The notes below the pieces were generated by a model, which saw only the letters and a list, made by a program, of their open reading frames with translations, searched no databases and was not told the origin of the DNA. The translations under genes were made by a program, and so were the position numbers. From Candidatus Rokubacteria bacterium 13_1_40CM_68_15 (lineage in GTDB: Bacteria > Methylomirabilota > Methylomirabilia > Rokubacteriales > CSP1-6): 43,847 nt of DNA. Shown here one piece after another: positions 182 to 20,382 of this stretch (the first letter of the stretch is position 1; each line of letters begins with the position of its first letter). The stretch lies in assembly GCA_001917585.1 (NCBI GenBank), contig MNEG01000130.1:1-43847 (forward strand), read 5' to 3'.

Positions 182-586
182 ATGAGCGTGAACGACGCTT
201 CGCCGGACCTCACCGACCTCCACCTGTTGGTCGTGGACGATCACGACGACACCCTCGAAGTGTTCGGCGCCGCGCTGGAGTTGCACGGGGCCCACGTCCT
301 GACGGCGAGGAGCGCGCGAGACGCGCTGACGCTGCTCAAGACGGTGCGGCTCGACGCGATCATCTCCGACTTGGCGATGCCTGGCGAGCGCGGCTTCTGG
401 CTTGTCGAGCAGCTCCGCGGACTGGAGAGTGAGAAGGGCGGCAGTATTCCGGCGCTGGCAGTCACCGCACACTGGGACCGCTACAGCGCCGAACAGGTGA
501 CCGCTGCCGGCTTCGAGGCGTTCCTGGCGAAGCCAGTCGATCCGCTCAATCTTTCGCGAACCGTCGCGTCACTCGTCGGGCGCTGA
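182..586 (+). CDS. Single-domain response regulator (receiver only), type A
   Basis: This 134-residue protein is a stand-alone CheY-like receiver with no output domain. The acidic pair is D19/D20 (VVDDHDD), the phospho-acceptor is D63 (IISDLAMPG), the switch Thr is T95 (AVTAH) and the conserved Lys is K117 (LAKPVDP), so it should be phosphorylatable by a partner histidine kinase, which is not in the window. It is a close paralogue of the minus-strand gene at 1540-1953; both end SRTVASLVGR. It lies five bases before a second, different receiver and probably shares its transcript. The ATG at 182 has only a weak ribosome-binding site. Its role is probably phosphotransfer or protein-protein signalling; the pathway cannot be read from sequence. 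Confidence 0.9.
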   Translation: MSVNDASPDLTDLHLLVVDDHDDTLEVFGAALELHGAHVLTARSARDALTLLKTVRLDAIISDLAMPGERGFWLVEQLRGLESEKGGSIPALAVTAHWDRYSAEQVTAAGFEAFLAKPVDPLNLSRTVASLVGR

Positions 587-591
587 GCGAC

Positions 592-1053
592 GTGGGACGT
601 AGCCGTAGCCGCCGCAACGCCGGCGCGTCGGACTCAGGCTCGCCGCATAGCGGCAGCGGTGGCCCCGCGTCTGTCATCCTCATCGTGGACGACCACGCCG
701 ACACGCGCGAGATGTACTCCATGTACCTCGCCTCGCAGGGTATGCGCATCGTTGTAGCCGGCGACGGCGTCACGGCGATCCGTATGGCGGTTGCCGATCG
801 ACCAGACGTGATCGTCATGGACTTGTCTTTACCGGTGATCGACGGATTAGAGACGATACGGCGATTGAAGCGGGACGGCAGTACGGCGCACATCCCTATT
901 GTGGCCTGCACTGGGCGCGTCGACGGCGGCAGCGGAGAGTCGGCCATCGAAGCTGGATGTGACGCCTACGTCCTGAAGCCGTGCTTACCCGAGCACCTCT
1001 TGAAGGAGATCCGCACGCTGCTCGCTCGGGCCAATCGTCAGCACGGCGCATAG
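592..1053 (+). CDS. Single-domain response regulator (receiver only), type B
   Basis: A 153-residue receiver with a Ser/Gly-rich N-terminal tail of about 25 residues. Receiver residues are D33/D34 (LIVDDHADT), phospho-acceptor D77 (VIVMDLSLP), T107 (VACTG) and K129 (VLKPCLPE). The GTG start at 592 is five bases after the upstream stop, suggesting co-transcription. It is not a copy of its neighbour but is closely related to the minus-strand gene 2155-2589, sharing MRxVVAGDG, VIVMDLSLP and AGCDAY. The tail has no recognisable domain, so an internal start is possible, although no better ribosome-binding site is evident. No DNA-binding domain follows the receiver. Confidence 0.88.
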   Translation: MGRSRSRRNAGASDSGSPHSGSGGPASVILIVDDHADTREMYSMYLASQGMRIVVAGDGVTAIRMAVADRPDVIVMDLSLPVIDGLETIRRLKRDGSTAHIPIVACTGRVDGGSGESAIEAGCDAYVLKPCLPEHLLKEIRTLLARANRQHGA

Positions 1054-1539
1054 CCCGCGGCGGCGACGGGATCCTACCGGTCGGCGTGTGGCCTCCGGCG
1101 CGACGGTGGAGCGGTTGGGTCGTCGATCCATGTCGCTGACACCGCGGTAACGGTCCACCTTCCGCCAGTGTGGTGCAGGCTCATTCGAGACGGTTTACCA
1201 TGATGAACGACGAGCCACTCCCGACGCCAGTATGGCTGGTGGGTCGTCCTGGAAATCCGTCTGGCGAGAATCGGCTTCACGCTGTCTGTGCGGCCGAAGC
1301 CACGACGTCGACGCAGCCGCCTCACGACCTCGTCCCATGACTCCCGCTTTCCGGAGATCGGCAACCCACCGCGGCGTTCAACCATGAGGAGCGGAGACCT
1401 CGAGCGCATGGCTCTCGATCGTGACGTAGCGGTCGTAACGCACACTCATAGAACGGATATCGACGGCTCCAGGTCGGAATCGGAGAGGCGTAGCGATGGA
1501 TCGAGAAGGTGGCGAGGTAACTTCCAGCCCGGGGCTGGG
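1054..1539. other. 486-bp stretch between receiver genes; no confident gene
   Basis: This interval separates the plus-strand receiver pair from the minus-strand pair. A 123-residue minus-strand ORF (1074-1445) is Arg-rich and has a segment (WLVVHHGKPSRMSLHH) that looks protein-like, but I recognise no family and it lacks a good ribosome-binding site. A 46-residue plus-strand ORF beginning with ATG at 1200 is equally uncertain. The stretch may hold a decayed gene or promoter DNA. No terminator with a T-tract was found. Confidence 0.4.
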
Positions 1540-1953
1540 TCAGCGACCGACGAGGGACGCGACCGTTCTGGAGAGGTCGAACGGATCGACCGGCTTCGTC
1601 AGGAACGCCTCGAAGCCAAGCTCCTTCAGCCGGGTGGCAGCGTAGCGCTCCCGATGCGCGGTGACCGCAATCGCGGGGATGCAGCCGCCCTTCTCGTGCT
1701 CGAGTTGGCGGACCTGCTGAAGCAACCAGAGGCCATCCTCGCCCGGCATCGCCAGATCCGAGATCATCGCGTTCACTCGTACCGTCTGAAAAATGGTCAG
1801 CGCGTCTCGGGCCGTCCTCGCCGTCAGGACGTTCGCCCCGAAGAGTCCCAGAGCGGCACTGAAGAGCTCGAGCGTATCGACGTGATCATCCACGACCAAG
1901 ACGTGGATGTCGGCCAGATCTATCGGACGAACCTCGGATGTCGTGCGGGCCAC
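1540..1953 (-). CDS. Single-domain response regulator, type A paralogue
   Basis: A 137-residue receiver-only protein with all signature residues: D22/D23 (LVVDDHVDT), D66 (MISDLAMPGEDG), T98 (AVTAH) and K120 (LTKPVDP). It aligns along its whole length with the plus-strand receiver at 182-586 and is clearly its paralogue. The start is a GTG at 1953. The type B paralogue 2155-2589 lies upstream on the same strand, about 200 bases away. A cognate histidine kinase is not visible. As a receiver without output domain it could be a phosphate sink, a phosphorelay intermediate or a partner-switching protein. Confidence 0.9.
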   Translation of the reverse strand: MARTTSEVRPIDLADIHVLVVDDHVDTLELFSAALGLFGANVLTARTARDALTIFQTVRVNAMISDLAMPGEDGLWLLQQVRQLEHEKGGCIPAIAVTAHRERYAATRLKELGFEAFLTKPVDPFDLSRTVASLVGR

Positions 1954-2154
1954 GCCGGGCGCATGCGCAATATCGGGACCAACTCAGTGACGGACGTGAT
2001 TTTCGACACTTGACGATCGGCGTGAACGAGGCGCTGTTCGATTCGGAGTCAAGCGGTCACGGCTTGGCACGCGGGCTGACACACGCGGCCGAACAACGCC
2101 CGCAGTAAGCGCACTTCTTGTCCTCGGCATCTTCAGCGTCGCCTGGCCATGCGT

Positions 2155-2589
2155 CTACGCCGGGCGCTGCGGCCGGGCCTTGCGCGCCAGCAGGATGCGG
2201 ATCTGCTCGAAGAGCTGTTCGGGCAAGCACGGCTTCATGAGGTAGGCATCGCAGCCAGCCACGATGGCGCGCTCCGCGCTGCCGCCACCGATGTTCCCGG
2301 TACAAGCCACGATCGGGATGTGAGCCGTGCGGCGGTTCCCCTTCAGCCGCCGGATCGCCTCCCACCCGTCGAGTAGGGGCAACGAGAGATCCATGACGAT
2401 CACGTCGGGCTGCCGGCCTTCAGCAAGGCGAACGGCCGTCAGGCCATCACCGGCTACCACGACGCGCATCCCCTTCGAGACGAGATACGTGAAGTACATC
2501 GCCCGGGTGGCCGCGTGGTCGTCCACGATGAGGGCGAGCGGACCACGGTGCGAGACCGATGAGGTCGTCGGGTATTTCTTCGTCCTCAC
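2155..2589 (-). CDS. Single-domain response regulator, type B paralogue
   Basis: A 144-residue receiver-only protein with D23/D24 (LIVDDHAAT), D67 (VIVMDLSLP), T97 (VACTG) and K119 (LMKPCLPE). It is the paralogue of the gene at 592-1053. Translation probably starts at GTG 2589, giving a short basic N-terminal tail. It is transcribed away from the gene at 2795, and the 205-base interval between them contains palindromes and direct repeats that look like operators. The downstream type A receiver on the same strand may be co-transcribed. Confidence 0.88.
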   Translation of the reverse strand: MRTKKYPTTSSVSHRGPLALIVDDHAATRAMYFTYLVSKGMRVVVAGDGLTAVRLAEGRQPDVIVMDLSLPLLDGWEAIRRLKGNRRTAHIPIVACTGNIGGGSAERAIVAGCDAYLMKPCLPEQLFEQIRILLARKARPQRPA

Positions 2590-2640
2590 TGCGCCAGCTT
2601 ACGACGTGGCGGTTGGTCGAGAAATCGCCCAGACGTACTA

Positions 2641-2726
2641 GGAAAACATTTCCTTTGCTGAGCCAGGAAGGGTCTCCGTCCGGAAGGGTCTCCGTTCCTC
2701 TGGGAAAATATTTTCCCGTATTGACT
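2641..2726. promoter_or_regulatory. Divergent regulatory region with palindromes and direct repeats
   Basis: The interval between divergent genes contains GGAAA-ACA-TTTCC (2641-2653), two copies of GGAAGGGTCTCCGT (2666-2679 and 2682-2695, period 16) and a perfect 16-bp palindrome GGGAAAATATTTTCCC (2702-2717). The two palindromes share a GGAAA/TTTCC arm pattern, as expected of two sites for one dimeric regulator. A TTGACT hexamer at 2721-2726 could be a -35 element for the rightward gene; the matching -10 is poor. The AT-rich sequence is conspicuous in this GC-rich DNA. Function as operators is inferred from symmetry and position. Confidence 0.55.
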
Positions 2727-2794
2727 GAGGGCGGGCAGCGAGCAAATAGTCGATCAGATAGTTCGAATCACGGGGCGGTGGTTGAGGAGCGCAC

Positions 2795-3172
2795 ATGACG
2801 CACCCGGACGCCGCCCGCCCATATCCGCATCCCCCACAGACCATCGATCGCGCCGATCTGGCCGTGTTCGACGCTGGAGAGTTGCTCCACCAGAACTACG
2901 TCGTGCAGGGTGGTGAAGGGTGTGACGTAGTCCGTGACTTCCTCCGTCGACATTATCCGTCAGCCTTCTGCGCCCGCTGTCTCGCCAGGACGCTTCGTAT
3001 CGTGCCTGAGCAGGCGCGGAAGCTGATCGCCGCGCTACGAATCGATGGCGAGACGATCGTCCTGCTCGGCGCCCACTGCGCGCGCTGTCATCGGCCGCGA
3101 ATGACCGTACAGGCCGTCGGGTACGAAGACGCCCAGCAGAAGTCCGAGCAGGCCGCGAGCACCTTCTTATGA
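2795..3172 (+). CDS. Small protein with two CxxC motifs, coupled to a response regulator
   Basis: A 125-residue protein that I do not recognise as a named family. It has two Cys pairs, FCARCLA near residue 60 and HCARCHRPR near residue 95, about 35 residues apart; this spacing suggests a treble-clef or ribbon-type zinc site. Between them is a helical segment (PEQARKLIAALRIDGETIVL) resembling a small DNA- or protein-binding module. The stop overlaps the next ATG (ATGA at 3169-3172), so it is probably translationally coupled to the OmpR-type regulator. It has no signal peptide or TM segment. Zinc binding is inferred from the Cys pattern only. Confidence 0.7.
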   Translation: MTHPDAARPYPHPPQTIDRADLAVFDAGELLHQNYVVQGGEGCDVVRDFLRRHYPSAFCARCLARTLRIVPEQARKLIAALRIDGETIVLLGAHCARCHRPRMTVQAVGYEDAQQKSEQAASTFL

Positions 3173-3886
3173 ATCCCGCACCGGCGGATGCCGTACAGCG
3201 CTGTGGTCGCGTGCTCGTCGTCGAGGACGAGCCCGATGTCGCCGAGCTGATTCGTCACCATCTCGGTAAGGAAGGCTGGGACGTGCTCACCGCGAGTTCG
3301 GGGCCCGAGGCGCTCCGGCGGGCGCACGATGTCCGTCCCGACCTGGTGGTGCTCGATCTCATGCTGCCCGAGCTCAATGGCTGGGGAGGTCTGCCGCCGG
3401 CTCAGGCAAGATCCGGAGGCCCGGACGATCCCGATCATCATGGTCACCGGGCGGGTCGAGGAAGGCGATGTGATCCTCGGCTTCGAGCTGGGCGCCGACG
3501 ACTACGTCACCAAGCCGTTCTCGCCGCGCGAACTGATCGCCCGTATCCACGCCGTCGTCCGCCGCACGGGTGTCGAAGAGAGCCGGAGGCAGGTGTTCGT
3601 CAAGGCCGGCGACCTCGAGATCGATCGTGACCGCTTCGAGGTGAGGGTGAAGGGGCGTCCCGTCGAGCTGCTTGCGGTGCTGGCCAGCAGTCCCGGCCGT
3701 GTGTTCGGCCGCGACGAGCTGCTCGATGTGGTGTGGGGCCAGAACGGCTTCGTCCAGCCTCACACCGTCGATGTCCACCTCGCTCGGTTGCGCGGGAAAT
3801 TCGTGGCGACCAAGCTACCGATGCCGGCCATCGAGACGGCCCGGGGCGTCGGCTATCGGTTCCGTGAGCAGAACGGGAACGGCTGA
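3169..3886 (+). pseudogene. OmpR/PhoB-family response regulator, frameshifted and with a winged-helix deletion
   Basis: The receiver starts in one frame (VLVVEDEPDVAEL, then VVLDLMLPELNGW) and continues in the next (EVCRRLRQDPEA, MVTGRVEEGD, DDYVTKPFSPRE), followed by a winged helix (GRVFGRDELLDVVWG, VDVHLARLRGK, ARGVGYRF). The shift lies at TGGGGAGG, where one extra G in the run at 3383-3386 breaks the frame; removing it restores NGWEVCRRLRQ. In addition the wHTH reads GRPVEL-LAVLASSPGR, where the family normally has about eight more residues (such as TRKEFELL), so the first recognition-core helix is missing. It follows the CxxC protein with a 4-base overlap. Either the gene is decaying or part of this reflects assembly error; the in-frame deletion cannot be explained by a homopolymer error. 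Confidence 0.8.
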
Positions 3887-18320: not shown

Positions 18321-18403
18321 GCCTCAGAGTGTCAAACGTGAGGTGATACGCTGACGCGACCTTGCCCACCCGAGCGAATGATGCGAGGCTTGCTGTCCAG
18401 CCG

Positions 18404-18964
18404 ATGAGGTTCGTGAAGCACGTCGTCGCGTGTCTCCTGCTCGCCCTGGTCGCCTCGGTCGCGCACGGCGCCGACCCGGTCTGGGAAGCCTTGCAGTCAC
18501 GCGGCAGCGTCGTGGTGCTGCGCCACAGCTTCGCGCCCGGCGGATTCGATCCGCCAGACGCCAGGCTCGACGACTGCTCCACGCAACGCAATCTGGACGA
18601 AAGCGGTCGCCAGCAGGCCAGGCAGATCGGTGAGGCGTTTCAGCAGAACGGAATCGCGGTCGGGACGGTCCTCTCGAGTCCTCGCTGCCGGTGCCTCGAT
18701 ACGGCCCGCCTCGCCTTCGGACGGGTCCAGTCCTGGGACCCGCTACAAGGTGCGCTCAATGACACGGAACTTCGGCGACGGCACGTCGACGAGATCAAGA
18801 AGGCGATCGCCGAGCATCGCGACGGACCACCACTGGTACTGGTCACTCACGGCAGCGTCGTGGCCGATTTGACCGGTGTCAATGTTCGGATGGGTGAGTT
18901 CGTGGTGCTCCGGCGTGCGGCTGACGGCACGCACTCCGTCGCGGGTCGGCTCTACGTGGATTGA
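18404..18964 (+). CDS. Exported histidine phosphatase-family protein
   Basis: A 186-residue protein from ATG 18404 with a signal peptide (FVKHVVACLLLALVASVAHGA). The phosphoglycerate-mutase-type core is present: the RH motif R40-H41 (VVLRHSFAPG), STQRNLDESGRQQA, SSPRCRCLDTA with the second Arg, and VTHGSV with the second His. All four phosphate-pocket residues are there, so it should be an active exported phosphatase on an unknown substrate. The TTG at 18362 in the ORF track adds 14 residues before the signal peptide and is less likely. Confidence 0.88.
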   Translation: MRFVKHVVACLLLALVASVAHGADPVWEALQSRGSVVVLRHSFAPGGFDPPDARLDDCSTQRNLDESGRQQARQIGEAFQQNGIAVGTVLSSPRCRCLDTARLAFGRVQSWDPLQGALNDTELRRRHVDEIKKAIAEHRDGPPLVLVTHGSVVADLTGVNVRMGEFVVLRRAADGTHSVAGRLYVD

Positions 18965-19005: not shown

Positions 19006-20085
19006 TCACAGGCGGACGACGAACGACTCCAGCGACGCCCCGTCGAACTTCTCGTCGGGGGAATGACAGACGTGACACGCCCGAACCCCGATGTCTGAGA
19101 CCAGCGTGTAGCCGGTGGTCCCGTGACGCCAGATGATCACGTCGTAGCCCCGACGCTGGACGAGCTTGAACCTCGGGTTCTCACCCAGCTCCAGCTCGTT
19201 GTAGCCCGCCTCCTCGATGATGAAGAGCGAGACCCGGTGGTCATCGAGCTGGTAGTCGATCGCCGCGGTTTCGGCACCGGCCAGGCGAGACAGACGAGCG
19301 CCCATCAACGTGATCTTGGGATTCTTGAGATCGGGAAGCACGACCTTGAACTCGACGCGCTGCCGAAACCAGTCCTCCACCGCGGCAGGTGACACCCCGG
19401 CGATCGCCGGTCGCATCAGCCCGCGAACCAGCTTCTGATGCTGATCGACCGACGCGTCGGCGACTCCGTTCAGCCTGGTGCCACGCTGCATCGATGCGAT
19501 CGAGCCCGCGCCGAGCGTGATACCGGTGGCGAGCACGACGGCTGCCGCGAGCGCGTAGAGCCACGGCTTGTAGCGCGGACGCCGGAGCCTGGTGCTGGGT
19601 ACGGCGAGGTCAACGAGCACGTCGGCAGCCCGCGCAGGCCTCGAGATCAGGATCTCTCGACGGAGATTCCCGCCGGACACGTCGCCGGCAGGGGATGGCA
19701 CCGGCAGAGCGCCGCCGGCGGCTTCTCCGGTGTGCTGCCGGATCGCGGCCACCAGGGTATCGGGCGAGCACGGCCTGGCCAGGAAGCCGTCGGCACCGGC
19801 ATGCCTAACGGTCTCCCGCACCCCCGGCAACGTATTCCCTGTGATGATGATGACCGGGATGGCGGCAGTGCGATCATTCGCCTTGAGGCGCCGACACACC
19901 TGCAGGCCGTCCAGGACCGGCATCGCCAGATCGAGGACGATCACGTCGGGCCGGTGGTCCGTCACGACGTCGATCACTTGACCGCCGTCGGCAGCCTCGT
20001 CGACGACGAAGCCGGCCAGTGCCAGCGACGTGACATACAGCTCGCGCTGGTCTCCGAGGTCGTCAGCGATCAGGATACGCTTCAT
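19006..20085 (-). CDS. Membrane-tethered receiver with anti-sigma-like periplasmic domain and CXXCH haem motif
   Basis: A 359-residue protein from ATG 20085. Residues 1-120 are a receiver with D8/D9, phospho-acceptor D52 (VIVLDLAMP) and T82, but the conserved Lys is Arg (FLARPCSP, R104). After a Pro/Gly linker there is one TM helix (KPWLYALAAAVVLATGITLGAG, ~173-194). The outer part (DWFRQRVEF..., GARLSRLAGAETAAIDYQLDDHRVSLFII, RRGYDVIIWRHGTTGYTLVSD) matches the extracytoplasmic sensor part of transmembrane anti-sigma factors. It ends CHVCH (337-341), a c-type haem attachment motif. The receiver thus replaces the usual zinc-binding anti-sigma domain. A redox- or gas-sensing role across the membrane is inferred; no sigma factor is adjacent. 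Confidence 0.85.
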   Translation of the reverse strand: MKRILIADDLGDQRELYVTSLALAGFVVDEAADGGQVIDVVTDHRPDVIVLDLAMPVLDGLQVCRRLKANDRTAAIPVIIITGNTLPGVRETVRHAGADGFLARPCSPDTLVAAIRQHTGEAAGGALPVPSPAGDVSGGNLRREILISRPARAADVLVDLAVPSTRLRRPRYKPWLYALAAAVVLATGITLGAGSIASMQRGTRLNGVADASVDQHQKLVRGLMRPAIAGVSPAAVEDWFRQRVEFKVVLPDLKNPKITLMGARLSRLAGAETAAIDYQLDDHRVSLFIIEEAGYNELELGENPRFKLVQRRGYDVIIWRHGTTGYTLVSDIGVRACHVCHSPDEKFDGASLESFVVRL

Positions 20086-20307: not shown

Positions 20308-20382
20308 GCCGGGGTAGCTCAGAGGCAGAGCAACTGATTCGTAATCAGTAGGTCGCGGGTTCAACTCCCGCCCCCGGCTCCA
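20308..20382 (+). tRNA. tRNA-Thr (anticodon CGT)
   Basis: Full cloverleaf: acceptor GCCGGGG/CCCCGGC, D arm GCTC...GAGC, anticodon arm ACTGA-TTCGTAA-TCAGT with CGT at 20340-20342, T arm GCGGG-TTCAACT-CCCGC, discriminator T and an encoded CCA (20380-20382). The body closely resembles bacterial tRNA-Thr(CGT), which decodes ACG. No integrase gene is adjacent. Confidence 0.97.

Follow-up and report, generated by a model that had tools for sequence, protein, structure and literature searches.

A receiver protein with an anti-sigma-type periplasmic sensor and a putative c-type haem motif in Rokubacteria

Comparison with the closest described systems

Anti-sigma factors carry signals from the outside to the inside, and Cys/His chemistry is common among them. 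The protein considered here is encoded in a stretch of 43,847 nucleotides from Candidatus Rokubacteria bacterium 13_1_40CM_68_15 (the window, that is, the whole stretch of DNA that was analysed), and it can be compared to several described systems. First, it resembles the zf-HC2 transmembrane ECF anti-sigma factors (class I) in having one transmembrane (TM) helix and a homologous periplasmic domain, but it differs from them in that a receiver takes the place of the zinc domain and no sigma gene was found adjacent. Second, RseB and MucB, which exert periplasmic control of sigma-E, are the best structural matches of its sensor core; they differ in being separate periplasmic proteins without a receiver, and to our knowledge they have no CXXCH.

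Other systems share features with this protein or with the operon found beside its relatives. Among the targets of S. meliloti RpoE4 (ECF26) are its own anti-sigma gene, the sulfite dehydrogenase gene sorT, and genes for a cytochrome c and a pseudoazurin (PMC3511301). The system is like the relatives' operon in that a sigma factor and an anti-sigma factor control periplasmic sulfur oxidation genes including cytochrome c; the accessible part of the source mentions no CXXCH or haem in the anti-sigma factor (PMC3511301), and the window protein is without such an operon. The DUF3365 Cache domain (Tll0287) is a periplasmic sensor that acquired a c-haem motif, and signalling proteins containing it behave as NO sensors (PMC12889525). 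This sCache_heme/DUF3365 domain is similar to the window sensor as an extracytoplasmic sensor with an acquired CXXCH that can be fused to signalling modules (PMC12889525), whereas the window sensor has an RseB/MucB-like predicted fold and a C-terminal motif. In membrane-anchored response regulators such as archaeal MetOD3, a receiver is likewise attached to the membrane; the output domain is different, and the accessible part of the source mentions no anti-sigma-type sensor or CXXCH (PMC5847659).

In the literature searched, whose coverage leaves many subscription papers outside, neither a haem c anti-sigma factor nor a receiver with an anti-sigma sensor was found. A first-pass annotation of the window, made from the sequence alone, knew of no described family with this domain order. 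The parts are each known; their combination and the swap appear to be new.

Domain organization and conservation of the window gene

The first-pass annotation proposed that a receiver, one TM helix, an anti-sigma-like sensor and a CXXCH motif are joined in a single protein, and Pfam, hydropathy and homologues bear this out (Table 1). Besides Response_reg, the protein has no credible Pfam match; its C-terminal half is without a match, and the sensor domain has no direct Pfam or NCBIfam assignment. A sigma-like domain was not found with Pfam, zf-HC2 gave no Pfam match up to E 1, and the HxxxCxxC motif is absent. The single TM helix and the homologous periplasmic domain are the features that the protein shares with class I ECF anti-sigma factors.

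Table 1. Features of the window gene and its neighbours (window positions).
Feature	Position	Strand	Remarks
Gene, receiver - TM - periplasmic CXXCH protein	19006..20085	(-)	359 aa, ATG start; syntenic orthologue L043:9515-10546
Receiver domain, residues 4-116	19738..20076	(-)	PF00072 (Response_reg), E 1.1e-24
D52, phospho-acceptor position	19930..19932	(-)	
R104, at position of conserved receiver Lys	19774..19776	(-)	Arg in L043 too
Linker, ends RLRRPRYKP, approximate swap point	19567..19737	(-)	50% identity (poorly conserved); resembles zf-HC2 paralogue L044
Single TM helix, residues ~174-197	19495..19566	(-)	Hydropathy; long helix in AF2 model
Periplasmic anti-sigma-type sensor domain, residues 199-359	19009..19491	(-)	Homologues; AF2 pLDDT 86; best PDB matches RseB/MucB
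CHVCH (CXXCH) motif, residues 337-341	19063..19077	(-)	16/16 in clade; CVVCH/CIVCH outside phylum
tRNA-Thr (CGT), upstream neighbour	20308..20382	(+)	Conserved in L043
Histidine-phosphatase-superfamily neighbour	18362..18964	(+)	PF00300; synteny conserved

Of the features of a two-component receiver, the fold, the acidic pair (D8 and D9), the phospho-acceptor aspartate (D52) and the Thr/Ser residue (T82) are kept. The conserved active-site lysine is not; it is replaced by Arg104, as the annotation had read, and this may weaken phospho-signalling. Because the basic stretch RLRRPRYKP precedes the TM helix, the receiver is predicted to lie inside and the C-terminal domain outside. The annotation described the protein as ending in CHVCHSP; the motif is present in the C-terminal region but stops 18 residues short of the C-terminus. 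A chance occurrence of CXXCH was ruled out by its conservation in the clade described below and by its frequency in shuffled versions of the protein (0.05%).

Using an alignment of 35 rows, AlphaFold2 (AF2) modelled the TM-sensor part with a pLDDT of 86. The best PDB matches of the sensor in Foldseek, RseB and MucB, are modest (E 2.5e-3 and probability 1.0, with low TM-scores). A short C-terminal helix has the CXXCH motif at its end; the confidence of the model falls to ~65 and below there. A sequence search against solved structures gave nothing significant, and a viral fold library gave no match. The extracellular haem-binding protein 3fpv (E 0.66) was taken as a chance match. Membership of DUF3365/sCache_heme was also rejected, with no profile match up to E 1 and a fold nearest to RseB/MucB.

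A second species of the window genus (genome G001) encodes the same receiver-form protein in the same gene order, at a locus designated L043. The gene is flanked there by the same tRNA-Thr and by the same histidine-phosphatase, PCP_red and carboxypeptidase genes as in the window, and the two loci align in blocks across ~10 kb at 75-90% DNA identity. Since an independent genome carries this gene intact and in conserved synteny, the window gene is not an assembly or frame artefact, and the frame between the TM helix and CXXCH, which the annotation had marked for checking, is real. The receiver form, for which a search of other genomes had been suggested, is known from these two genomes only, both of the window genus. 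A scan of genome contigs yielded three loci only. The two proteins share 70% identity overall and 78% in the receiver. Their dN/dS (Nei-Gojobori) is 0.27 in the receiver, 0.48 in the linker, 0.41 in the sensor and 0.39 overall, and dN is lower than dS in every part of the gene.

Among the window genes called and family-scanned, neither a sigma factor nor a cytochrome gene was found near the receiver-form gene, as the annotation had stated. An ECF sigma gene was likewise found neither in the window nor in L043, whether by tblastn with the sigma factor of locus L045 or among the genes called.

A clade of CXXCH anti-sigma factors and the origin of the receiver form

The C-terminal domain used alone as a query gave matches in 61 of 99 relatives. 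A tight clade comprises 16 members within the phylum, which match the family profile with E < 1e-76, the next best match being at 3e-22. The tree recovers it as monophyletic (support 100/99), with outgroup rows that are all of the anti-sigma type. CXXCH is kept in each of the 16 members, and thus in all close orthologues, the group for which the annotation had called for this check; at the same place it is present in none of 20 more distant homologues that were read out.

Fourteen members of the clade carry a zf-HC2-type HxxxCxxC (PF13490 was confirmed by Pfam in one of them, L045), and every one of the 14 is adjoined by a gene homologous to the ECF sigma gene of L045. A receiver in place of the zinc finger is found in the window protein and L043 only. 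In G001 the two forms occur together, the receiver form at L043 and the zf-HC2 form at L044. The window sensor is 59% identical to that of L044 and 51% to that of L045, the range for the zf-HC2 anti-sigma factors of related genera being 36-51%; the likeness to transmembrane anti-sigma factors noted in the first-pass annotation is therefore one of homology. In G001, the sigma gene at L044:8849-9324, next to the gene for the zf-HC2 form, is apparently frameshifted, possibly as a pseudogene or through an assembly error.

Outside the window genus, the zf-HC2 relatives (L045-L057) belong to a gene cluster with the order ECF sigma factor, CXXCH anti-sigma factor, CarboxypepD_reg-like secreted protein, metallophosphoesterase, SoxA/TsdA-type cytochrome c, SoxYZ fusion and CcoN-like oxidase subunit I. 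All seven genes are present in 11 of the 11 loci with enough sequence; two further clade loci run off their contigs and are not included in this count. In the window genus, one homologue of the cluster oxidase (73% identity) is encoded elsewhere, and the cluster cytochrome had no match in either genome, an empty answer that is weak when taken alone.

CXXCH anti-sigma factors were also found in three genomes outside the phylum. Two of them (G191 and G388) are of one genus and have the motif CVVCH. The anti-sigma gene of G191 has CcmF and a gene for a di-haem peroxidase at a distance of no more than ~6 kb. The third (G457) has CIVCH, and nearby, at locus L115, are genes for a secreted protein, a phosphoesterase, a SoxA-like cytochrome, SoxYZ and an oxidase. 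This run is divergent from the anti-sigma gene and lies behind a beta-propeller gene, representing a rearranged cluster. The broader subject is a lineage of haem-motif anti-sigma factors that is apparently undescribed.

Because the outgroup rows are of the anti-sigma type, the receiver is the derived state. Just before the TM helix, L044 reads RRWYKPWL and the window protein has the similar RPRYKPWL, and therefore the TM helix and the sensor moved together. The window protein thus represents a domain swap on an anti-sigma factor of this haem-motif lineage. Of the receivers compared, a stand-alone one (L043:6657-7031) is closest to the fused receiver (51-54% identity versus 40-45% for the others); it is encoded ~2.5 kb from the fused gene in G001, beside the same tRNA-Thr. 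Local duplication of this stand-alone gene would be the simplest source of the fused receiver. The fusion is likely, but not proven, to have arisen once in the clade, as the tree does not settle how the two receiver forms and L044 branch. The earlier interpretation is supported in part: the anti-sigma homology holds and the haem reading of CXXCH is strengthened, and that a derived swap confined to one genus produced the receiver form could not be seen from the sequence alone.

Putative haem site and direction of signalling

The annotation read CXXCH as a c-type haem motif. The motif is conserved in all clade members within a domain whose export is predicted from the positive residues before the TM helix, and cytochrome c assembly genes occur in both genomes of the window genus (PF01578 matches in G000 and G001). 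The main support for haem comes from the co-occurrence with respiratory genes, which extends beyond the phylum, and from these assembly genes. In the clade alignment, no clade-wide, haem-specific distal axial ligand was seen. A C-terminal Ala-His is present in most zf-HC2 relatives and missing in the window genus, so that a five-coordinate, gas-binding haem is possible there; a five-coordinate haem would need no distal ligand. Another conserved histidine, H216 in the window protein, is not haem-specific, as homologues without CXXCH also have it. A single cysteine at approximately the column of the second motif cysteine (window 19066-19068) is seen in many of the closest homologues that lack CXXCH, and the second cysteine is perhaps older than the haem motif for this reason.

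The uncertain distal ligand, this single cysteine and the frequent use of Cys/His chemistry by anti-sigma factors would also suit a metal site or a thiol/disulfide switch at CXXCH, with the sensor reading a periplasmic oxidant or metal. We consider this unlikely, since the histidine is invariant together with both cysteines, in the clade and beyond, and since genes for cytochrome c, an oxidase, a di-haem peroxidase or CcmF lie beside the anti-sigma relatives.

We give a probability of about one half to the reading that the window protein is a domain-swapped, membrane-tethered receiver in which haem c on a sensor derived from an anti-sigma factor relays the periplasmic state to the receiver. 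The ancestor was an ECF anti-sigma factor with an N-terminal zinc finger holding a sigma factor, one TM helix, and an RseB/MucB-like periplasmic sensor with CXXCH at its end. One copy in the window genus exchanged this zinc finger for a receiver, which probably arose by duplication of the stand-alone gene beside the same tRNA-Thr. The sensor is most likely exported by way of its TM anchor, and the Ccm system would attach haem c to CXXCH. The redox state of the haem, or a bound ligand or gas, may then be passed through the TM helix to the receiver, where it could affect phosphorylation by a distant histidine kinase, the lifetime of the phosphate or the binding of a partner. We infer haem attachment, the signal and its outside-to-inside direction.

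The direction could also be the reverse: phosphorylation of D52 by a histidine kinase might alter the periplasmic domain in its state or stability, with the receiver acting inside-out or only in recruitment, or the protein might serve as a phosphate sink. The intact D8, D9, D52 and T82 would fit such a role, as would the receiver being the better conserved half. However, the zf-HC2 relatives all have this domain in an architecture of the anti-sigma type, and anti-sigma factors signal outside-in; a change of Lys to Arg also usually impairs receiver activation. A reversed role is thus quite unlikely.

Decay of the fusion into a relic is improbable. It would imply loss of the operon in the genus, a decaying sigma partner and a receiver form that is disappearing, and it draws on the operon cytochrome not found in the two window-genus genomes, on the apparently frameshifted sigma gene adjoining L044, and on an overall dN/dS that is not strict. 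Against it, both copies are open at full length with CXXCH and most receiver site residues kept, dN is below dS, and synteny is conserved between species. That the receiver still binds sigma, as the sigma-binding part of an anti-sigma factor from which the sensor indeed derives, is very improbable with no zinc-finger domain, no sigma-like domain and no sigma gene found nearby.

If the haem-relaying receiver is real, it represents a natural experiment in the evolution of signalling: the same periplasmic sensor drives an ECF sigma factor in the majority of genera but a phospho-receiver in a single genus, and the exchange lies immediately before the TM helix. In Rokubacteria, one signalling system would apparently have been rewired into another by replacement of its head. 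It is quite possible, though not the more probable outcome, that anti-sigma factors of a family spanning phyla detect redox state or gas in the periplasm by covalently bound haem c and control a SoxYZ/cytochrome/oxidase operon, and that the head swap in one genus moved this sensor from ECF-sigma to two-component output, as a membrane receiver gated directly by periplasmic haem. The findings would also point to haem c anti-sigma factors that, in uncultured soil bacteria, are linked with operons of a respiratory, sulfur-oxidation-like kind.

In a simple scan of the gene calls for H-boxes, no histidine kinase was found next to the receiver-form gene. Elsewhere in the window (182-3886), four stand-alone receivers are clustered with an OmpR-type regulator, whose own receiver is apparently broken by a frameshift near 3385. 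Between the receiver genes, a 125-residue protein without a Pfam match is encoded at 2795-3172; it contains CxxC and CARCH and looks zinc-ribbon-like rather than like a cytochrome.
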